From contig JAIQGG010000001.1 of assembly GCA_020072785.1 (NCBI GenBank), forward strand, positions 558,001-622,000: a DNA stretch of 64,000 nt, in the 5' to 3' direction. The notes under the pieces were generated by a model. It did not search any database. It saw nothing but the letters and a program-made list of their open reading frames with translations, and was not told where the DNA came from. Below, in pieces: positions 16,341-26,220 of the stretch. Positions within the stretch are counted from its first letter, which is position 1, and each line of letters opens with the position of its first letter. Source of the stretch: Terriglobia bacterium. GTDB lineage: Bacteria > Acidobacteriota > Terriglobia > Acidiferrales > UBA7541. The position numbers and the translations under genes were made by a program.

Positions 16341-16393
16341 GGAAATGAATGTCCCGCAGTGGAGCGCTAGCTCGCCGCGCAAGTGAGAAAGCC

Positions 16394-18520
16394 ATGCCGC
16401 CGATCCAGAAGGAGTCCGCTATTTCGCAGGATATGCCGGCCGCGGCGCCGCCGCAGCCATCCGCCCGGCCAAACGGCCGCGGCCAGGAGACAGCCAAGCC
16501 GCAGCCCGTGTGCCTGGAAATGCCCGTGAGCGTGCATGGGGCCTGCAACGTCGAGGGCAGCGACAAGCGCGAAAAGTTTCACGAGGCCACGCACACCGTC
16601 CTGATTTTTGCCAGCGGCGCTGTGCTGCGCCTGGCCGCCAGCGTTTCCCCGGGCCAGCTGCTTTTTCTCACCAACGAGCGCAGCAAGCGCGAGATCGTCT
16701 GTCAGGTTGTGAAGTCCAAGAGCTATCGCAACGTTAGCGGCTACGTCGAGCTGGAATTCAGCGAACCCTGCCCCGGTTTCTGGGGCGTCAGCTTTCCAGG
16801 GGAGCGAACGGCTGCGGGGAAAACGGCTGCGCAAGGGAGCGCAGCTTTGCCGGTGGCGGTGAACGCGGAGAGTATCGCCGCGCCACCGCTGCCGAGAGTG
16901 ATGTTGCCTCCCCCCCCGGCCGGCCCGGCCGAGAGCTATTTATCGGCGCCACCGCCCATCGCGGCCTCTGTCGCTGCAGCGGAAATCCCCTTTGCGCCAG
17001 CCGAGCCTATGCAGCTTCCCGCGTCCTGGAGCGTTGACCGCTCTGCGGTCACCCAGAACAAGGAAGAAGCGCCGGAACAAGCTGCGCCGGAGCCGCCGGC
17101 GATTCCCGCGGTGATCGAAGAAAACCTCGCACCCGGGGAGCGCCCTGCGGTGTTGGAGACCGGACCCGCGTCGCTGACGTTCCTTTCCGCCGCCGCGCCC
17201 GTATCTTCGCTTCCGGGGAGCGAACAGGAAGCGCCAGTGGCGGACGGCCTGCCCGCGGTTCCGCAGATGCCCGAAGGGTCTGCCGGCGCGGCGCAGGTTG
17301 ACCGCTTCGCGGTCACACATGGAGTTGACCGCTTCGCGGTCACACATGGAGTTGACCGCTTCGCGGTCACGCATGCAGAAGTGTCCGTGCCGAATTGGCT
17401 GTCGCCCATAGCGCTGGCGCAGCCTTCCGAGCCGCGTACAGAAACAGACCTTGCCGCGAAGAGCGGCGTCAACAGCGTCCCGAAGATCCTGCCGCTCCCG
17501 GAATGCCGCACCGAGCCGGAGTTGGCGACCAACGTGGCGGAGCCGATAGGCTACTTGCAGTTGGGCGGCAAACCATTTGTGGCCGGTCCGCGGGCCGTCC
17601 GCGAAGCGCCGGCTTTTGGCAGAAACATCCTGCTGGCCGAGGAGAAGAGCATGCCCGCGGCGCGTCCCGGCGCTGGCCGCGGCCTCATCTACCTGGCGGC
17701 GGCCGCAGCGATTCTGGTCAGTTTGGCGGGGGCCAAGTGGTATCTGCGCCAGCCGGAGAAACCCCCTGAAGAGGTAGCGGTAGCCGAGACGGCCCCGGCG
17801 GCGGTTTCCCCTGTGATGGCCAAGACGGCCACCCAGCCTGAAGTGGCGCAAAGCGCTGTTGCCGGGAATCCGGTTTCGACCTCCGTGAGCCTGGCGACGA
17901 CACCGGCGGATTCTCTGCCGCCTATTCCCATCGTCATGGATACGCCGGCGGCACCGGCCAAGCAGGCTGCGCCCATGGCCGGCATGGGCGGGAATGCGCG
18001 CAAGAACCCAGCAGTGCTCCAATTCGTGGATCCGGAAAAGCAGCCGAAGAAGCTCCCGCCGGGAATTCGCCTGGCTGCGCCGGTGGTCTCGCGCCGCGCT
18101 GCGCCGGACGGCGCGGCTGCGGAAGACGTAAACCTGGGTGCCCTGCCTGGTCCTCTCGTGGGCGTTGACCGCTTCGCGGTCACACAAATCGGGGAGGCCG
18201 CTGCGGGGCTCCCTGTTTCGCATTCGAAACCCGCGGTGCCGCGCAGTGGCGGGGTGCAACCCGCACGACTGCTCTTCTCCGCGCCGCCAGTCTATCCGCC
18301 GCTGGCGCGCGGCGAGGGCATTGCAGGCGACGTGGTCCTCGACGCGCTGATCGGCGCCAACGGGCGGGTCACTGCCATGAAGATCCTTTCCGGCAACCCG
18401 CTGCTGCAGCAGGCGGCCAAGGATGCGCTGCGCCGTTGGCGGTATCAGCCGGCCATGCTGGACGGCCAGCCCGCTCCCTCACACCTGACAGTCACCATCC
18501 AGTTCCGTCTCCAGCGCTAG
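16394..18520 (+). CDS. PilZ-like / transmembrane / TonB C-terminal fusion protein with in-frame repeats
   Basis: 708 aa from ATG 16394 (ATG 16349 in the same frame is an alternative). Order: an N-terminal domain of about 100 residues (PVSVHGACNVEG ... VELEFSEPCPGFWGVSFP) that looks PilZ-like. A very long Ala/Pro-rich segment follows. Near residue 440 is one membrane segment (GLIYLAAAAAILVSLAGAKW). After another disordered stretch comes a C-terminal TonB domain (PPVYPPLARGEGIAGDVVLD ... RRWRYQPAMLDGQP). The disordered parts contain five copies of the 20-nt palindrome read in frame as VDRFAVT or VDRSAVT, three of them tandem. It may couple an inner-membrane energy or c-di-GMP signal to an outer-membrane partner. 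No ExbBD lies beside it. The domain calls are by eye. Confidence 0.7.
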   Translation: MPPIQKESAISQDMPAAAPPQPSARPNGRGQETAKPQPVCLEMPVSVHGACNVEGSDKREKFHEATHTVLIFASGAVLRLAASVSPGQLLFLTNERSKREIVCQVVKSKSYRNVSGYVELEFSEPCPGFWGVSFPGERTAAGKTAAQGSAALPVAVNAESIAAPPLPRVMLPPPPAGPAESYLSAPPPIAASVAAAEIPFAPAEPMQLPASWSVDRSAVTQNKEEAPEQAAPEPPAIPAVIEENLAPGERPAVLETGPASLTFLSAAAPVSSLPGSEQEAPVADGLPAVPQMPEGSAGAAQVDRFAVTHGVDRFAVTHGVDRFAVTHAEVSVPNWLSPIALAQPSEPRTETDLAAKSGVNSVPKILPLPECRTEPELATNVAEPIGYLQLGGKPFVAGPRAVREAPAFGRNILLAEEKSMPAARPGAGRGLIYLAAAAAILVSLAGAKWYLRQPEKPPEEVAVAETAPAAVSPVMAKTATQPEVAQSAVAGNPVSTSVSLATTPADSLPPIPIVMDTPAAPAKQAAPMAGMGGNARKNPAVLQFVDPEKQPKKLPPGIRLAAPVVSRRAAPDGAAAEDVNLGALPGPLVGVDRFAVTQIGEAAAGLPVSHSKPAVPRSGGVQPARLLFSAPPVYPPLARGEGIAGDVVLDALIGANGRVTAMKILSGNPLLQQAAKDALRRWRYQPAMLDGQPAPSHLTVTIQFRLQR
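17033..17052 (+). repeat. 20-nt palindromic repeat, copy 2 (in frame)
   Basis: GTTGACCGCTCTGCGGTCAC; the loop is TCT. Encodes VDRSAVT inside the TonB fusion protein. Confidence 0.9.
17297..17377 (+). repeat. Tandem array of three palindromic repeats, 27-bp period (in frame)
   Basis: Copies start at 17297, 17324 and 17351. Each is the exact 20-nt consensus followed by a 7-nt spacer (ACATGGA, ACATGGA, GCATGCA). The 27-bp unit adds nine residues, VDRFAVTHG, so the frame is kept. Confidence 0.95.
18164..18183 (+). repeat. 20-nt palindromic repeat, copy 6 (in frame)
   Basis: Exact consensus. Encodes [11 protein letters not shown] in the TonB fusion protein between the membrane segment and the TonB domain. 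Confidence 0.9.
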
Positions 18521-18815: not shown

Positions 18816-20087
<1,272 letters not shown>

Positions 20088-20110
20088 CCCCGCGCCCGGT
20101 TCCGTTTAGC

Positions 20111-20180
20111 GCCGGGCTCCCGGCTCGTCCCGATTCCATCGGGACCCCGCCGGGAGCCCGGCCTTTCTCTTTTTGCTTTT
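20111..20180 (+). terminator. Intrinsic terminator of gdhA
   Basis: A long stem GCCGGGCTCCCGGC / GCCGGGAGCCCGGC (20111-20124 with 20149-20162) encloses a second small stem (GTCCCGA/TCGGGAC), then CTTTCTCTTTTT. The T-rich run is directly after the stem. Confidence 0.85.
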
Positions 20181-20755
20181 CCCCTAGCGCCCGCCCCCTG
20201 GCCCCGCCGTGAGGCGGGCTTCTTTCTCCCTCTCGGCAACCGCTGACCACGCTCTTTCCGGCTTCGTGGGCAGCCATCTTCGCTTTTTTCTTGAGGGTAG
20301 CCCGCACCTCCCGATTTTTCTCTCTTTGACGCCTGCACACGGCGCGCGCATACCGCTTCCTCACTTCACTGCAGAGACCGCTCTGCGCCTTCTGCGTCTC
20401 CGCGTTATCTTTTTCTCTCCCTCCTTCCATTCTTTCTCGAATCCCATTCGGTCGGTCGCCCATACGTGGATTTTGCGTGTAAGGTTTTTGACTCTTGCGA
20501 TGAATAGCAGCGAGAAGCTGTCTCATAAATATCCGGATGACTAACCACACACCGTCATTCCGAACGGAGTCCGCGGAGTGAGGAATCTCTCTTCGCCTTT
20601 GTATCGGAAAGACCTCACGTGTAAATCCGGCACGTGGGGCACCCATATGACCCCACTTTAACGCTCGAGTGACCTACAATAATGATATTCTCCCGTCGTG
20701 TATCCCTTATCGAGACAAGAAAGAAAATCATCGGCGCCCTCTGGGCCACCCGCCC
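20181..20755. other. Gene-poor junction into the accessory region
   Basis: No convincing gene. It holds a second hairpin CCCCGCC-GTGA-GGCGGG (20202-20218), and a CGCAGAG-type patch reading TGCGCCTTCTGCGTCTCCGCG (about 20384-20404). A 46-nt sequence starting near 20519 matches one near 34674 and includes the common CCGTCATTCCGA motif. A GGGCCACCCGCC repeat (20743-20754) lies just before the RHS coding piece. Base composition drops from the gdhA level. Confidence 0.6.
20743..20754 (+). repeat. GGGCCACCCGCC repeat, copy 1
   Basis: One of three copies of this 12-mer in 3.3 kb (others at 23247-23258 minus and 24035-24046 plus). It is followed by ATGTCCGGCGGGCC, so it can fold as a hairpin. It marks the point where RHS homology begins. 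Confidence 0.6.
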
Positions 20756-21997
20756 ATGTCCGGCGGGCCATACACCTATGTATATGATGGCAGCGGTCTG
20801 CGCGTGAAGAAGTCAAACGGCACGGCTGGCACGCTCTATTGGCGAAATCTGAGCGGAGAGACTATTGCGGAAACCGATCTGAGCGGGAACATAACCAGCG
20901 AGTATGTATTCTTTGCCGGCCGGCGCATCGCTCGTCGCGACGCCTCCGGCAACATCTTCTTCTACGACGCTGACCATCTTGGGACTACGCGCACGATAAC
21001 CGATTCGAGCGGAAACATTTGCTACGACGCGGACTTGACGCCCTACGGCCAGGAGATTACGGTCCACTCCAACTCCTGCCCGCAGAACTACAAATTCACT
21101 GGGTACGAGCGCGACCAGGAGACGGGCCTGGATTACGCCATGTTCCGCTACTACAATCCGCGCCTCGGCCGCTTCATGTCCCCCGACCCGCTGGGAGGCG
21201 ACGTTGGGAATCCACAGACACTGAACCGCTATGCGTATGTGCTGAACAACCCGCTGGCTCTTATTGATCCATTGGGACTCGACCCAACTGCCGACCCTTG
21301 CGCGAAAAGCACTGCACCCGGAGGCTGCGGCTCTGTAACTGCAACCCCGACTGATGGACCACACGTCACAGACGTCCCAGGAATTTGCATGACGGTAATG
21401 AGGAACAATATCGTGGTCAGTTCCTCTAACGGCTGCTCGCCCTACCCGCTCAGCGATCGCAGTGGCACAATCGCTGGCGCAAGCGGTGGCGCGGGCGGTG
21501 GCAGCGGCAGTGGCCCCGCAAACAACGGACCGAAGCAGACCTTCTCGCAATGTATGGCCGCAAACAGCTCAACCTTCAGCCTAGCTGGACTGGCACAAGG
21601 AGCGCTCAACGGCGTATTGAGTGAGTTCGGAACGTCTGTCAACTTTAAGGACACGTTCCTCGCGCAATTGATCGGTGGCAATTCCATCAGCGGCATCTTG
21701 TTTGGATCGGCGACAGATGCTGCGGTGTCCGCAGGCACTAATACGCCAGGGCTACTGCATTTGGCAATGGGGACGGTCACCACATACGGCAGGAGATCAT
21801 CCACAATCATGTCGCTGAATATTGCAGGCCAAGGCGGTCTTCCCCAAGCTCTCAGCTCGGCATCAGGCGGACTGAAAAGCGTGCTAGGTGCCGCTGATAG
21901 CGTTCTTAGTCTAGGCATGAGTTTTGCTACTAGGCTTGAAATTGACGCGGCATTTGCAGGGGCGGAAGCGGCTTATTGCGCGCACAAAACCAAATGA
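20756..21997 (+). CDS. RHS-family C-terminal piece: core end plus variable tip (5'-truncated)
   Basis: About 413 aa. It starts inside the YD-repeat region (YTYVYDGSGLRVKKSNG) and runs through the conserved RHS core end (FTGYERDQETGLDYAMFRYY; GRFMSPDPLGG; NRYAYVLNNPLALIDPLGL). A tip of about 220 residues then begins after DPLGLDPTADPC. The tip is Gly/Ser-rich in its middle and ends in a hydrophobic stretch (LGMSFATRLEIDAAFAGAE, then CA). The large N-terminal cage of a full RHS protein is missing and no good start codon context exists, so this is a displaced 3' end, not a full toxin. The tip has no nuclease motif I recognise. The next gene overlaps its stop by 4 bp. Confidence 0.75.
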   Translation: MSGGPYTYVYDGSGLRVKKSNGTAGTLYWRNLSGETIAETDLSGNITSEYVFFAGRRIARRDASGNIFFYDADHLGTTRTITDSSGNICYDADLTPYGQEITVHSNSCPQNYKFTGYERDQETGLDYAMFRYYNPRLGRFMSPDPLGGDVGNPQTLNRYAYVLNNPLALIDPLGLDPTADPCAKSTAPGGCGSVTATPTDGPHVTDVPGICMTVMRNNIVVSSSNGCSPYPLSDRSGTIAGASGGAGGGSGSGPANNGPKQTFSQCMAANSSTFSLAGLAQGALNGVLSEFGTSVNFKDTFLAQLIGGNSISGILFGSATDAAVSAGTNTPGLLHLAMGTVTTYGRRSSTIMSLNIAGQGGLPQALSSASGGLKSVLGAADSVLSLGMSFATRLEIDAAFAGAEAAYCAHKTK

Positions 21998-22554
21998 GTG
22001 AGAAGCAGCGATCGCGGTTTATTACACACCTCTTCCGGGTTGGCGCCTATGTTGCGGCGGTCTTTTGGTTGGCGTTTGTTTGGGGAGGACTGAAAGTCCT
22101 TTCTACACCGGACACCGGAAGGCATTCTCACTTGGCCGGGTGGACGATTCTGGTTGTCGCCGCTGCAGTAATGATTGCGACCATGAATCACTGGGTGAAG
22201 TACCTCCAGGTGATCTTTGGCGGCGGGATCCTTGGCGGCTTACTTGCGACTGGTGAGGGCCATCTCCTAAACGGCAGTCCCTTTCCTCGTCCGGTTGCCG
22301 CTGCTATGACAGCACTATTTGTTGGCTGCAGCCTTATCTCAGGGACACTCGCCAGACATAGGCTTAGGATGCTCGATCGTTTGGCGCTGATAGCTTTCCT
22401 GGCCGCGTTTGCGGGCGGGCTGGTCAAAGGTACGCCCAATTCGTGTCTCATCGGCCTCGGCATAGGATTCAGCTGCCTTCTTGCTGCATGGGTGCACAAT
22501 CAGTTGTCATCTACTCCAAACCGGGACGCGGGGGGTACGGCCCGGCATTTGTAA
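21994..22554 (+). CDS. Multi-pass membrane protein after the RHS tip (possible immunity protein)
   Basis: 186 aa. ATG 21994 overlaps the RHS stop as ATGA. About five hydrophobic segments are visible, such as VGAYVAAVFWLAFVWGGL, WTILVVAAAVMIATM, VIFGGGILGGLLA, MTALFVGCSLISGTL and IGLGIGFSCLLAAWV. The position, directly after a polymorphic tip and translationally coupled, is that of an RHS immunity gene. A membrane immunity protein would suit a tip that acts on membranes. No family is recognised, so the role is inferred only. Confidence 0.55.
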   Translation: MSEKQRSRFITHLFRVGAYVAAVFWLAFVWGGLKVLSTPDTGRHSHLAGWTILVVAAAVMIATMNHWVKYLQVIFGGGILGGLLATGEGHLLNGSPFPRPVAAAMTALFVGCSLISGTLARHRLRMLDRLALIAFLAAFAGGLVKGTPNSCLIGLGIGFSCLLAAWVHNQLSSTPNRDAGGTARHL

Positions 22555-22737
22555 GCGGGAGTGGTTACGGACGCCGCCGTAAATGCTCTAACGAAGTCCG
22601 AACCAATTCTCTCCATGACAGGAACAGGGACCCAACTCGCTGCGGAGGGACTGGCAGGCCCCATCGGCTTGGCCAAGGTTGGCGTGGACTTCGTAATATT
22701 TGCAGGCTCTGCGATATCTTGTGCTTCTAGACACTGA
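22555..22737 (+). pseudogene. Remnant of a second RHS tip (C-terminal 60 codons)
   Basis: Directly after the TAA of the previous gene, and in the same frame, 60 codons read AGVVTDAAVNALTKSEPILS and end PIGLAKVGVDFVIFAGSAIS, then CASRH. The end resembles the end of the intact tip (DAAFAGAEAAYCAHK versus DFVIFAGSAISCASRH), so this looks like the tail of a related, displaced tip with no start of its own. A small membrane gene follows after 10 bp. Confidence 0.5.
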
Positions 22738-22747
22738 GGGAATAGCG

Positions 22748-22951
22748 TTGAGCGACTATAATCAGACTACACTCGCGCTCGTAATCATTTTCTTGGGAAT
22801 GGGAGTAGTCGGTTCCCTTATTGGAATTCTGTGGTATCGGATAGTTGCTCGCTCCCAGCTCGACAGAGATACCATTTTCTTCGTCATCAAGATGTTCATG
22901 GGCTTGGCCGCAGCCCTTATGGTCGTCATGCTGATTTTTCGATACATGTAG
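22748..22951 (+). CDS. Small two-TM membrane protein after tip remnant 2
   Basis: 67 aa from TTG 22748, with GAGGGA six bases upstream. Two hydrophobic segments: LALVIIFLGMGVVGSLIGIL and FMGLAAALMVVMLIF, with a charged loop RIVARSQLDRD between them. It starts 10 bp after the stop of the tip remnant. Like the 186-aa gene, it occupies the immunity position. Family not recognised. Confidence 0.5.
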   Translation: MSDYNQTTLALVIIFLGMGVVGSLIGILWYRIVARSQLDRDTIFFVIKMFMGLAAALMVVMLIFRYM

Positions 22952-23282
22952 AAATCTCAATCCCCGGAGTTGCAACCGGAGAAGTTGTCCCGCCTTCAGT
23001 TGAAACATGAGAAAGGAAGTAGCAGTTCTCGGGCGGGTGCCAGCCCCTTGATGAGTTGCCAAGGACTGGGTGCCGCATCCCCTTTCGTCCGCGAAAATGG
23101 TGCGGTTTTGCCTTTCACCGGGCAGCGCGTCGAATTCACCGCTTGCCTTGAGAAGAGCCGAAAGACGGGCAATCATGCCGCTTCGCCCACACTCAATTTC
23201 GTGTTAGATCGCCAGCGAGATGATGAGATCCTGGTGTCGCCGCGCAGGCGGGTGGCCCAGGTTTAATGACCGAGTAGGTTCG
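22952..23282. other. Gap between the small membrane gene and the transposase element
   Basis: An open frame here (22970-23266 plus) has no recognisable features and no ribosome site. The stretch contains a minus-oriented GGGCCACCCGCC repeat (23247-23258). Otherwise nothing is identified. It may be the debris of another displaced tip. Confidence 0.4.
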
Positions 23283-23314
23283 GGGTGCCCCATTCTTGCG
23301 CAGCAAGAGTGGGG
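23283..23314 (+). repeat. Left 32-bp inverted repeat of the RAYT element (REP hairpin)
   Basis: GGGTG followed by a near-palindrome, CCCCATTCTTGC, loop GCA, GCAAGAGTGGGG. It matches 23920-23951 exactly in reverse complement. The hairpin form is what RAYT transposases bind in the REP systems described for other bacteria. Confidence 0.9.
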
Positions 23315-23365
23315 CTTTTCTCTTTCTCTTTCTCTTTCCACGCTCTATCTCAGAATCTCTACTCT

Positions 23366-23902
23366 TCAGCCGATGCCATCCATATCCAATAAACACGGCG
23401 CGTCGTTGTAGTAAAACGCCCAACTGCTCCAAGGCCAGTCTCTGGGGTGTGCCACCAGTTTCCGGGTCACTGGATTCCTGTGCATATACTCCAATTTCTC
23501 GCGAACCTTTTTCGCACTCCACACATTGAAATCGTAAAACCGGCGTTGCCAGAATCGCGGTAGCGTCCCAGCGCCCTCCCGGAATGGCAGTTGCAGTTGA
23601 TTGGCGGCAGCGCTATTTTCTCTTCGCTTGGCCCGCGCCCTCCGCGAAACTCCCAGTTTTAGCGCCTTGAGAACCGTGGACGGCGTCCCTTTCTTCGGTT
23701 CTCCGATCAGCAGGTGCACATGCTCCGGCATTACCACAAAGCCCACCAGCGCGAATCCATACCGTGCGCGCACTGCACTCAGCACTTTGACAAACAGGTT
23801 CCGTGTGCGGGCCTTGCCGAGAAGCGGCAGTCTGCGGTAACAACTGAACGTCAGGAAATGCAGATCTCCCCGCCCGTAATAGCGCTTCAACCCTTTCGGC
23901 AT
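23366..23902 (-). CDS. REP-associated tyrosine transposase (Y1_Tnp/IS200-like)
   Basis: 178 aa from ATG 23902 (MPKGLKRYYGRGDLHFLTFS). The frame is open to 23938 but that part lies in the flanking repeat. The HUH motif MPEHVHLLI (about residues 65-73) supplies the two metal-binding histidines. The catalytic tyrosine is most likely in KLEYMHRNPV. The W-rich end DWPWSSWAFYYND is typical of the RAYT group. These enzymes cut single-stranded DNA at REP hairpins and are usually single-copy and domesticated. It appears intact. Confidence 0.9.
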   Translation of the reverse strand: MPKGLKRYYGRGDLHFLTFSCYRRLPLLGKARTRNLFVKVLSAVRARYGFALVGFVVMPEHVHLLIGEPKKGTPSTVLKALKLGVSRRARAKRRENSAAANQLQLPFREGAGTLPRFWQRRFYDFNVWSAKKVREKLEYMHRNPVTRKLVAHPRDWPWSSWAFYYNDAPCLLDMDGIG

Positions 23903-23919
23903 CGAAGAAGAACCAAAAA

Positions 23920-23951
23920 CCCCACTCTTGCTGCGCAAGAATGGGGCACCC
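23920..23951 (-). repeat. Right 32-bp inverted repeat of the RAYT element
   Basis: Exact reverse complement of 23283-23314; CCCCACTCTTGC, loop TGC, GCAAGAATGGGG, then CACCC. It overlaps the extended 5' end of the transposase frame. Confidence 0.9.
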
Positions 23952-24034
23952 TCATCTCTCTACTCCACGCTGACTTGCCGAAGTGGTATCCTCTCACCGT
24001 GCGCCGCCAGGAAGAAGGGAAAATCTGGAGGAGT

Positions 24035-24046
24035 GGGCCACCCGCC
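24035..24046 (+). repeat. GGGCCACCCGCC repeat, copy 3
   Basis: Lies at the point where tip remnant 3 begins. It is followed by further GC-rich half-stems (CGCTGGCGGGGCC; GCCGCCAGCGGC), giving several possible hairpins. Confidence 0.55.
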
Positions 24047-24050
24047 TGGT

Positions 24051-24164
24051 GCGACCGCTGGCGGGGCCACAGCCGCCAGCGGCGTGGCCACTGGAGCGTT
24101 CGGGGTCTATTTCTTAAAGAACTATACGCTTCCCGCATTTAAGGACTGGGGCTGCCATGAATAG
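24051..24164 (+). pseudogene. Possible third RHS tip remnant
   Basis: The frame reads ATAGGATAASGVATGAFGVY, then FLKNYTLPAFKDWGCHE and stop. Gly/Ala-rich then hydrophobic, like the ends of the other two tips, but sequence similarity is weak. The next gene starts inside its last codons (ATGAATAG overlap), as at the intact RHS tip. Confidence 0.35.
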
Positions 24165-24609
24165 CAATCCAATTAACAGCGATGGGGAGAAGACGCAAGG
24201 GCTACTAGGCTCGGTAAACTTTGCAATCTGGACGGCTGTGATTTTCTTCGGCCACGCTGTCGGAGCCGCCATTTTCATCGGACTTGCCGGTTTCGCCCTG
24301 AACTTACCCGCTCGCAGACTGTTGGTACCTTATACGACGCTTCTCTACTGCGGGCTAGTGCTCTCGCCCTTGCTCTATTGGGCGCGCTTATCGCGCGAGC
24401 GACCCAAGTCCTGTGCAGTTCGATTCGGCATAGCCATGTTTTTGTACTTACAGATTCTTATGCTCGCACTCGGATTCAGCGCGATTAGGCTGGGTATTCT
24501 ATCGCAGACAGCAGCCCTCAATGATTATGCCCCTTTCATGGTGCCCTTTTCTGCGCTCGCCTCCATCGTTATATACGTAGTCACGCGCCAGATGCTCAAA
24601 GGCAGGTAG
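24157..24609 (+). CDS. Four-TM membrane protein after tip remnant 3
   Basis: 150 aa, starting MNSNPINSDGEKTQGLLGSV. Hydrophobic segments near residues 21-45, 55-72, 88-108 and 125-142. ATG 24157 overlaps the stop of the upstream remnant by 8 bp. GC is lower than in the chromosomal neighbours. No family recognised. It is the third small membrane gene in an immunity-like position. Confidence 0.55.
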   Translation: MNSNPINSDGEKTQGLLGSVNFAIWTAVIFFGHAVGAAIFIGLAGFALNLPARRLLVPYTTLLYCGLVLSPLLYWARLSRERPKSCAVRFGIAMFLYLQILMLALGFSAIRLGILSQTAALNDYAPFMVPFSALASIVIYVVTRQMLKGR

Positions 24610-24889
24610 CCCGGACGTAAAGTAAGTAGATGAACTGGGGTGGCCCTCGATAAGAGCGAAGGCGTTGTCAAGAGACACTTCTTCGCCGCATCTCTTTTTG
24701 TCCACGAAAGGGTGCGTTTTTTTCTGCGCCTGGCAATGTCGCGCACAACCTCATTCGAATGCGCCGCCTCCCCCGCCCCCCGCCAATTCCTCCCAATAAC
24801 TCCTTGAACCGCATGTACTACTGTGCTAACATGTGCCGTGAGTACGCAGCAGCCACCCCGTGCGCCGCACCCCTCCCCCGCTAATCCTT
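24610..24889. other. Gap with no gene seen
   Basis: No frame with a ribosome site or a recognisable protein. It has C-rich and T-rich runs near 24710-24790. Nothing else is supported. Confidence 0.4.
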
Positions 24890-24984
24890 GCAGAATCTGC
24901 AGTTCCGCAAAACCCGCCCGCAAACCTCGTAGAATCTGCACTTACAAATCATTGGACTTAAAGTCCCGCAGAATCTGCAGTTCC
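24890..24984 (+). repeat. Three 17-nt repeats with an exact 39-bp period
   Basis: GCAGAATCTGCAGTTCC at 24890 and 24968 (exact), and GTAGAATCTGCACTTAC at 24929. Starts are 39 bp apart in both steps. The core GCAGA-A-TCTGC is a perfect palindrome. The sequence between the cores is not conserved. Confidence 0.8.
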
Positions 24985-24995
24985 AGAAAAGTGGT

Positions 24996-25014
24996 GGGGG
25001 GGGGGGGGTGGGGG
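24996..25014 (+). repeat. G13-T-G5 homopolymer tract
   Basis: Thirteen G in a row (24996-25008), one T, then five G. It directly follows the 39-bp repeats. Length may vary by slippage or by sequencing error. Confidence 0.85.
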
Positions 25015-25314
25015 TCGTTATGTTTACTTCTCACCTGCCAGCTTTTGCGGAATCACTCTTCGCACTTTACGTTTGGCCACCCGTCCCCGGGAGGCCAGCG
25101 CCACTTTCCGCAAAAGGCCGCAGGCCGGGCTTTCCGCCCAGGACCAAGGTCCCGAAAAGGTTGGTACTGGCGCGAGGGGCCGGAAATGTGTAATCTTCGC
25201 TCCAAGCGTGGTGTCTGCCAGGGGTTCCCTGGACCGCGGAGCGTGTCCCCACTCCGTGACGGGTCGAGCCGAAGGGTCGAGATTCGGCGCAGGCCTCTTT
25301 CCCTGCGCTTGCGG
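25015..25314. other. Leader region upstream of the aldolase repeats
   Basis: An open frame runs through here in phase with the aldolase gene, but it is low-complexity and has no start with a ribosome site. No gene is called. It contains a GGACC-A-AGGTCC type near-palindrome near 25140 and no clear promoter. Confidence 0.4.
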
Positions 25315-25399
25315 GTTGACCGCTTCGCGGTCACACGTGCAGTTGAATGCTGCGCGGTCACCCATGCAGTTGACCGCTCCGCGGTCACAGAAATAAAGG
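25315..25399 (+). repeat. Array of three palindromic repeats ending in the aldolase Shine-Dalgarno sequence
   Basis: Copies start at 25315 (exact), 25342 (GTTGAATGCTGCGCGGTCAC, decayed stem) and 25369 (loop TCC), with a 27-bp period. The last continues AGAAATAAAGG; AAAGG (25395-25399) is eight bases before ATG 25408. Same layout as at gdhA. Confidence 0.9.
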
Positions 25400-25407
25400 T
25401 GCGCAAC

Positions 25408-26220
25408 ATGTTTCCGGAGTCCTCTTCACAGCGCCAGCCCAAGACGGAAGAGCAGCACCGTCAAGACATCTGCCAGACGGGCCGCTGGATGTACGAGCGC
25501 GGCTTCATCGTGGCCTGTGAAGGCAACCTCTCCGTGCGCCTCGACGCCAAGCGCATCCTGACCACCCCGACCGGCATGAACAAGGGCATGCTCACACCCG
25601 GCGATCTGGTTATCACCGATCTCGAGGGGCGGCAGCTCGACGGCACGCGCAAGGTCTCTTCCGAGCTGGGCATGCATCTGCTCATCTACCGCTTGCGCCC
25701 GGACGTGCTGGCCATCTGCCACGCGCATCCCCCGACGGCCACGGGTTTCGCCGCCGCCGGCCGCGCCCTGGACCAGGCCCTGCTTCCCGAAGTGGTGATC
25801 TCCCTGGGACTGGTGCCCCTGGCGCGCTACGGCACGCCGGGCACGCCCGAACTCAGCGACACCCTCGAGCCCTACGTGCCGCACTACGACGCCATTCTCC
25901 TCGCCAATCACGGCGTGGTGACCTTCGGGCCGGAGCTGCTCACCGCTTTTTACCGCATGGAAACCGTCGAGCAGTTCGCCAAGATCGCTCTGGTCTCCGG
26001 CCTGCTAGGCAACTACAAGCTGCTTTCCGGGCGCGAGGTGGCCAAGCTGATCGCCGCGCGTTCGCGCTATGGCTGCGCGCCGCCCCCGGGCGCCAGCCCG
26101 GAACTCCCGGTCACCGCTGAAGTCGCCGAATCCGGAGAAGGCGAACGCATCAACTTCACTCCCAAAGAACTGGAAGCGCTGATTGACGAAGCTGTGCGCA
26201 AGGACCGCTCCCGCCGCTGA
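25408..26220 (+). CDS. Class II aldolase/adducin family protein (L-fuculose-phosphate aldolase-like)
   Basis: 270 aa. Zn-dependent aldolase fold: GNLSVR near the N-terminus, the paired histidines in CHAHPPTATGF and the third in NHGVVTFG are the expected zinc ligands, and ASSELGMHLLIYR-type residues (SSELGMHLLIYRLRPD) bind phosphate and supply the catalytic Glu region. Substrate could be fuculose-1-phosphate or another hydroxy-aldehyde phosphate. The C-terminal 50 residues extend beyond the usual domain and are charged. The true start is ATG 25408, although the frame stays open far upstream. It carries the palindromic-repeat leader. Confidence 0.85.
   Translation: MFPESSSQRQPKTEEQHRQDICQTGRWMYERGFIVACEGNLSVRLDAKRILTTPTGMNKGMLTPGDLVITDLEGRQLDGTRKVSSELGMHLLIYRLRPDVLAICHAHPPTATGFAAAGRALDQALLPEVVISLGLVPLARYGTPGTPELSDTLEPYVPHYDAILLANHGVVTFGPELLTAFYRMETVEQFAKIALVSGLLGNYKLLSGREVAKLIAARSRYGCAPPPGASPELPVTAEVAESGEGERINFTPKELEALIDEAVRKDRSRR

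Follow-up and report, generated by a model that had tools for sequence, protein, structure and literature searches.

This work concerns a gene island of a Terriglobia bacterium (Acidobacteriota; Acidiferrales; UBA7541; assembly GCA_020072785.1), in which pieces of RHS polymorphic toxin genes alternate with genes for small membrane proteins. The stretch of DNA that we analysed, which we will call the window, is 64,000 nt long and corresponds to positions 558,001-622,000 of the forward strand of contig JAIQGG010000001.1; all coordinates are window positions unless they are given in kb on contigs C1 to C4, while G and L numbers are our handles for the compared genomes and loci. The genome of the bacterium amounts to 3.73 Mb, is 98.9% complete and is a draft of 11 contigs. 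Read base by base, the island is a 3.9-kb stretch of three modules, each composed of an RHS tip (the variable C-terminal part of an RHS protein), or the tail of one, and of the membrane gene behind it. Its G+C is 0.558, against 0.649 in the rest of the window.

The three modules of the island

The first module opens with the 3' end of an RHS core on the plus strand (20756-21283, about 176 codons), which matches the Rhs_assc_core model TIGR03696 (7.9e-25) and carries two DPLG motifs spaced by 23 residues. The frame is open from 20651 and its first in-frame ATG is at 20756, so that the core starts in the middle of the gene, directly behind the sequence GGGCCACCCGCC (20743-20754). Behind the second DPLG comes tip 1 (21284-21997, plus strand), which has 237 aa, contains a domain conserved in other genomes (21533-21994) and ends in IDAAFAGAEAAYC before a stop at 21995-21997. 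The succession of an Rhs_assc_core and a variable C-terminal tip places this piece among the RHS proteins; a shell of YD repeats is missing, and the piece is a fragment of an RHS polymorphic toxin rather than a working member. The tip overlaps by an ATGA with membrane gene 1 (21994-22554, plus strand), which encodes a putative immunity protein of 186 aa. Five hydrophobic segments are found in this protein by Kyte-Doolittle analysis, which is the only source of all the transmembrane (TM) counts given here, versus six helices in its AlphaFold2 model, a bundle with a pLDDT of 72. A Foldseek search of this model against the PDB gave no match (best E 0.39).

The second module begins immediately behind membrane gene 1 with remnant 2 (22555-22737, plus strand), the apparent C-terminal tail of a second tip. 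Its frame, open over 22555-22734, ends in VGVDFVIFAGSAISC and a stop at 22735-22737, and a gap of 10 bp separates it from the TTG start, at 22748, of membrane gene 2 (22748-22951, plus strand), a putative immunity gene of 67 aa with 2 TM segments. In the third module, remnant 3 (24047-24164, plus strand) starts right after the last base of an 85-bp repeat element, ends in AFKDWGCHE with its stop at 24162-24164, and overlaps by 8 bp membrane gene 3 (24157-24609, plus strand, ATG at 24157), which encodes a putative immunity protein of 150 aa with 4 TM segments. For the membrane proteins, the candidate families PNTB, DUF418 and TspO were rejected, as their Pfam scores lay far below the cut-offs.

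This layout (the ATGA overlap, the 10-bp gap, the 8-bp overlap and the three protein lengths) had been described in an earlier sequence-only reading of the DNA, and rereading confirmed all of it. That reading had overlooked a transposase gene at 23366-23938 on the minus strand and the repeats that bound the RHS fragment and remnant 3 on their left sides, to which we return below. Frames as long as the three membrane genes stay open in only 3, 69 and 8 of 2000 shuffles, respectively, and these rare open frames, together with relatives arranged in the same order elsewhere, put the modules beyond chance. Upstream, the large frame at 18816-20087 looks by eye like a glutamate dehydrogenase and not a main RHS gene, and an Rfam scan of 20000-25500 gave zero matches.

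Conservation of the tip and membrane gene pairs

RHS core matches occur in 62 of the 89 genomes of the host's family, and each of the three modules has an independent relative in other Acidobacteriota. Most of the comparison genomes are drafts, and the downstream partners were assigned by a simple automatic next-gene caller, with at least one of them, that of L063, corrected by hand. Tip 1 has relatives in three other genomes, with identities of 65% in G048 (= L105, metagenome-assembled genome (MAG) YF1.bin127), 55% in L106 (MAG CP_BM_ER_R8_1) and 41-46% in G087 (= L107, MAG gp2 AA80). In 4/4 genomes that have the tip 1 domain, the next gene is a homologue of membrane gene 1 (28-50%). The relative in G087 is carried on an RHS gene with YD repeats; those of G048 (L074) and L106 are orphans without a core, located behind another tip and its membrane gene. 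L106 has first a core with tip A and a 3-TM gene, next the orphan tip 1 with its partner, and finally the beginning of a further RHS gene. A phylum-wide search with the tip 1 profile returned the own genome as the sole credible match, and the three other matches (E about 0.002-0.01) were rejected as unrelated proteins.

Membrane gene 1 also has homologues without a tip, so the picture here is mixed. They are few, being present in 7 of 95 genomes, and 4 of these 7 are tip-linked (the own genome, G048, G087 and G043, to which L106 is added from another collection). In G043, a tip-1-like tail precedes the homologue within a row of small membrane genes. The three solitary copies, in G062, G068 and G075, have the appearance expected of orphan immunity genes, and the one in G075 is frameshifted.

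For the second module, G084 contains a tail that matches remnant 2 at 37% identity (E 0.017); the gene after it has 2 TM segments and the same length of 67 aa as membrane gene 2, which it matches in pairwise BLASTP with an E of 0.004. For the third, membrane gene 3 has homologues in G050 (31%), where an RHS core with a hydrophobic tip immediately precedes it, in G040 (30%), inside an RHS-bearing locus, and in G024 (42%, 1.8e-29), where the gene is solitary. The proposal of an orphan tip/immunity array is supported by these synteny-conserved relatives, which come from at least five other genomes. Of the two remnants, remnant 2 has the weak and syntenic relative in G084, and the tail of remnant 3 had no match among the fetched loci. 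Also in G040 (L114, G040:C3, minus strand 3-530), we noted a candidate tip with a long Gly-rich hydrophobic stretch (GAIGGAIAGADGLG...VGGVVGGVAGAGAGVFLG) that recalls the glycine zippers of ionophore toxins; another membrane gene lies behind it.

A shared tail and a class of membrane partners

The ends of tip 1 and of remnant 2 had been noted as alike. What stands of this likeness is a D-x10-C pattern whose C lies at most 10 residues from the stop, and which is found in tip 1 (in four genomes), in remnant 2 and its G084 relative, in a G048 remnant, in tip A of L106, in a G046 tip and in the G043 remnant; nine of these tails were included in the alignment. A profile of the tip 1 tail, run over all the open reading frame (ORF) tails, found neither remnant 2 nor remnant 3, so the likeness is limited to this pattern. 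With a hydrophobic x10, it occurs in 22 of the 13,249 ORF tails of the fetched DNA, and 9 of these 22 are RHS tips or remnants, all of them directly before a gene with 1-6 predicted membrane segments. As the pattern was found after looking, these counts describe rather than test.

We also surveyed the partners of 98 RHS tips with complete ends from the host's family. About a fifth of these partners have at least three hydrophobic segments, about a third have none, and the largest group has a single one (signal peptide or anchor). The membrane-partner class is thus a minority among many tip types. The tips that precede multi-pass genes are more hydrophobic than the others (22 vs 75 tips), both in GRAVY (p 0.0012) and in their best 19-residue window (p 0.0085), which indirectly supports the view that the tips belong to a toxin group acting at the membrane.

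Other kinds of partners were seen in passing. In three genomes (L093 7841-8293, L071 531-827, L045 5942-6145), an RHS tip or tail is followed immediately by a gene for a small protein similar to the C-terminal domain of TonB, which suggests a second, periplasmic type of RHS partner. Many RHS tips of the family (for instance at L033, L034, L035, L037 and L040) end in motifs of the HIHVQF..GGHGDLPK type, which by eye resemble peptidoglycan peptidases, and precede genes with one N-terminal hydrophobic segment.

Parent gene and second island

A full RHS parent gene, for which the sequence-only reading had proposed to search the rest of the genome, was looked for and not detected. The RHS_repeat (YD) model gave zero matches over the own genome, and the RHS core model found only three pieces there, namely the one in the window, a second (C1:209 kb) and a scrap (C1:155 kb), none of which is a full-length RHS gene. 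The island shares with orphan arrays its displaced tips, which come as three modules each with a partner, and the presence of relatives on RHS genes elsewhere, tip 1 being carried by an RHS gene in G087 and the partner of module 3 standing behind an RHS core and tip in G050; a main RHS gene upstream of the array was found neither in the locus nor in the whole genome.

The C1:209 kb island follows the same plan, with a core end, a full tip and a 3-TM gene of 121 aa joined to it by a stop/start overlap, and it is closed by a copy (88%, C1:210.2 kb) of the 3' repeat that closes the island of the window. In total, the genome holds about ten genes of the partner type, whose role would be immunity, and two full tips.

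Repeats, transposase and dispersed islets

The edges of the modules are largely made of repeats. A 152-bp repeat lies 5' of the RHS fragment (20603-20754, plus strand), ends in GGGCCACCCGCC and is 86.8% identical to a copy at C2:747 kb, behind which lies a gene whose product is probably secreted. In the interval that separates modules 2 and 3 are found spacer repeat B (23031-23164, plus strand, GGGCGGGTGCCAGCCCCTTGATGAG...), with 6 matches in the genome, and the transposase gene mentioned above (23366-23938, minus strand), which encodes a REP-associated tyrosine transposase (RAYT) of the Y1 type (NF047646 3.1e-30, Pfam Y1_Tnp 1.3e-09) and is flanked by inverted CCCCACTCTTGC...GCAAGAATGGGG. A second RAYT copy, 65.7% identical over 495 bp, is located at the C2:748 kb islets. 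The 85-bp element that precedes remnant 3 (23962-24046, plus strand) also ends in GGGCCACCCGCC and has 10 copies in the genome. Finally, the 256-bp 3' repeat of the island (24735-24990, plus strand) has 11 matches, among them those at C1:210.2, C2:181, C3:3 and C4:106 kb; at the last three sites it adjoins spacer repeat B. The sequence GGGCCACCCGCC itself is present in 18 genome copies, versus 2 for the reversed control, and three of them are in the island of the window.

The 85-bp element is the 5' edge of truncated modules. In 6 of its 10 copies, an ORF of 60-230 aa with at least two TM segments lies within 150 bp downstream, and several of these ORFs stand behind a short tail-like frame; on the opposite side, the count is 0/10. 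Random positions of the window lead to such ORFs in 4.2% of cases, which gives a binomial probability of about 1e-6, or about 1e-5 for 5 of 9 copies if the window's own is left out (same formula, by hand), the background being that of this one 64-kb window. At L167 and L168, the element leads into a membrane gene without a recognisable tip tail, and at L170 and L174 into soluble genes. Just upstream of the RHS piece at C1:209 kb, a variant of it stands before a short tail and a gene with a TonB domain, and another variant stands before a membrane gene at C3:3 kb, which is followed by the spacer and 3' repeats. At C4:106 kb (L180, C4:106.4-106.8 kb), 46 bp of tip 1 (95.7% identity) are fused to the 3' flank of the island, and this fossil implies that parts of the array were once present in a second copy, since deleted.

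In the RHS loci of other genomes, blastn of the 85-bp element gave no long match. The end GGCCACCCGCC, with loosely similar sequence upstream, recurs in G083, G084 and G071, where truncated RHS modules start right behind it. A REP origin of the element is plausible because of the RAYT nearby and of the second one at C2:748 kb; the link between transposase and element seen here is one of co-location only.

These edges modify the view that new tips are inserted in front and displace the older ones in the downstream direction. Such a displacement fits only the passage between modules 1 and 2, where no repeat is present. As a general picture it fails: a repeat found across the genome truncates both the RHS fragment and remnant 3, with a RAYT between the two, the parent gene is undetected, and elsewhere the repeat stands before single membrane genes.

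Interpretation of the island

We consider it likely that the region is a degraded orphan array of RHS tips and immunity genes, one of about ten similar islets in this genome, in which the delivery part has been lost and the membrane immunity genes have been kept. Each tip would be the C-terminal toxin domain of an RHS polymorphic toxin, or what is left of its tail, and the gene directly behind it would encode an immunity protein that spans the inner membrane several times. When intact, the toxins would leave an RHS shell in a neighbouring cell and attack the cytoplasmic membrane, most likely by forming helical pores or as ionophores; the immunity protein would bind and block them within the membrane. 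A REP-like repeat marks the point at which most tips appear to have been trimmed to their tails, and the membrane genes have kept open frames. With delivery lost and most tips shortened, the present role of these genes would most likely be protection against the toxins of neighbours, which would also be why they persist; tip 1 would be a cryptic leftover.

Several observations weigh against this interpretation. The scan of the membrane genes against Pfam and NCBIfam gave no fitting family. In tip 1, no segment exceeds the strict TM threshold, the best 19-residue window reaching about 1.2, and its AlphaFold2 model (pLDDT 35) is unreliable and was for this reason kept out of the fold search; the case for membrane action is thus drawn mainly from the partner. 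The module 2 relative in G084 is strong in its gene order and weak in its scores, and the assignment of remnant 3 as a probable tip tail comes from its position and from the relatives of module 3. The absence of the parent gene, finally, is read from a draft of 11 contigs.

The same array could also be inert scrap, whose modules were broken by the activity of repeats and transposase and whose membrane genes are open by chance and protect against nothing now. The undetected parent gene, the truncation of modules at repeats, the C4:106 kb site, which holds only the tip 1 fossil, and the frameshift in the solitary G075 homologue all agree with such a decay. It accounts poorly, however, for the three partner frames of the window being all intact while two of the three tips are cut, for the recurrence of this asymmetry at other islets, and for the rarity in shuffles of stop-free frames of these lengths, and we hold it to be unlikely.

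The nature of the toxin leaves room for another view, in which tip 1 and its relatives are enzymes acting in the periplasm or on lipids (amidase or phospholipase-like), the partners being membrane proteins for that reason and not because of pores. Indeed, behind many RHS tips of the family lies a gene whose product has a single hydrophobic segment at its N-terminus, which points to periplasmic targets, and tip 1 has a conserved polar block, GRRTSxxxSLNxAGKGGLPxAL, with invariant C, N and R residues, which is unusual for a plain pore former. Against this, neither Pfam nor NCBIfam gave an enzyme family match, the tip 1 domain is hydrophobic (GRAVY +0.38, 9% charged), and the partners are multi-pass proteins with little soluble mass, so that we find an enzymatic tip improbable. 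It is more doubtful still that the small membrane genes have nothing to do with immunity and are cargo riding with the repeat elements, or genes that use the repeats as expression signals. In favour of this idea, a membrane gene follows six of the element copies, at L167 and L168 with no recognisable tip tail, and other copies lead into the soluble genes of L170 and L174; the idea does not explain why homologues of membrane genes 1 and 3 stand directly behind RHS tips in G050, G087 and L106, where blastn finds no element.

Comparison with known systems

Orphan rhs-CT/rhsI modules are known in Enterobacteria, for example STM0291/0292 of Salmonella LT2 (PMC3967940), and they share with the island displaced tips with little or no core, the lack of own start signals and a linked immunity gene for each tip. 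Here, in contrast, the main gene is undetected, the modules lie dispersed with a repeat element at their cut edges, and a RAYT occurs among them. In Pseudomonas aeruginosa, Tse5 is an Rhs pore former and Tsi5 its immunity protein with 2 TM segments (PMC9637101, PMC10684867). The likeness lies in the C-terminal DPxG motifs, in a tip without recognisable enzyme domain and in an integral-membrane partner; a shared sequence family was neither looked for nor found. The DPxG spacing is 23 here versus 18-19 in Tse5, and the partners have 2, 4 and 5-6 TM segments, unlike the two of Tsi5.

The ionophores of contact-dependent inhibition (CDI) systems are alpha-helical, their ionophore domain being a bundle of five helices, with CdiI immunity proteins that are hairpins of 72-100 aa and two-domain C-terminal toxin regions with known receptors (PMC11630599). 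They too form very diverse membrane tip/immunity pairs with small, hydrophobic immunity proteins, and some have glycine zippers, to which the Gly-rich candidate tip of G040 may be compared; delivery is by CdiA there and by RHS here. Immunity genes without matching toxins, as this genome appears to hold, are found in polyimmunity loci (PMC3482391) and in the Salmonella Typhi immunity islet (PMC7400221). Those are single clusters, whereas here single-gene islets of the membrane type are dispersed and bounded by repeats; extended polyimmunity loci were not reported from Acidobacteria, and most of the listed families are soluble (PMC3482391). As in REP/RAYT systems (NF047646; PMC3733652 for REPs), a Y1 transposase adjoins short repeats, which here may be REP palindromes. 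The kind of locus is already known, from orphan rhs-CT arrays and immunity islets, while the tip family and the dispersed, repeat-bounded layout look new.

We know of no movement of tip/immunity modules by a RAYT. The 85-bp element and the resident RAYT might nevertheless be a machinery that captures or spreads tip/immunity cassettes, by which Acidobacteria would collect single membrane-immunity genes as repeat-bounded cassettes; this is a speculative idea to which we give little credence. If true, it would amount to a mobile and dispersed store of acquired immunity against membrane-acting RHS toxins, unlike polyimmunity loci and recombinase-linked defence clusters.

The literature that we searched contains little work on the RHS toxins of Acidobacteriota, a group of bacteria abundant in soil. 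The locus offers toxin/immunity pairs that can be tested, from a class that probably acts at the membrane and has putative immunity proteins of 2 to 6 helices. In this genome the weapon appears to be lost and the shields retained, at places that a repeat marks, and this makes it possible to ask whether orphan immunity genes protect soil bacteria against their neighbours and whether they are moved by REP/RAYT repeats.

Around the island, a further short palindromic repeat (GTTGACCGCTTCGCGGTCAC...) was observed at about 17250-17400, 18150, 18750 and 25310-25400, in tandem inside coding frames as well as between genes. In the TonB-like ORF at 16349-18520, it is read as VDRFAVTHG repeats.

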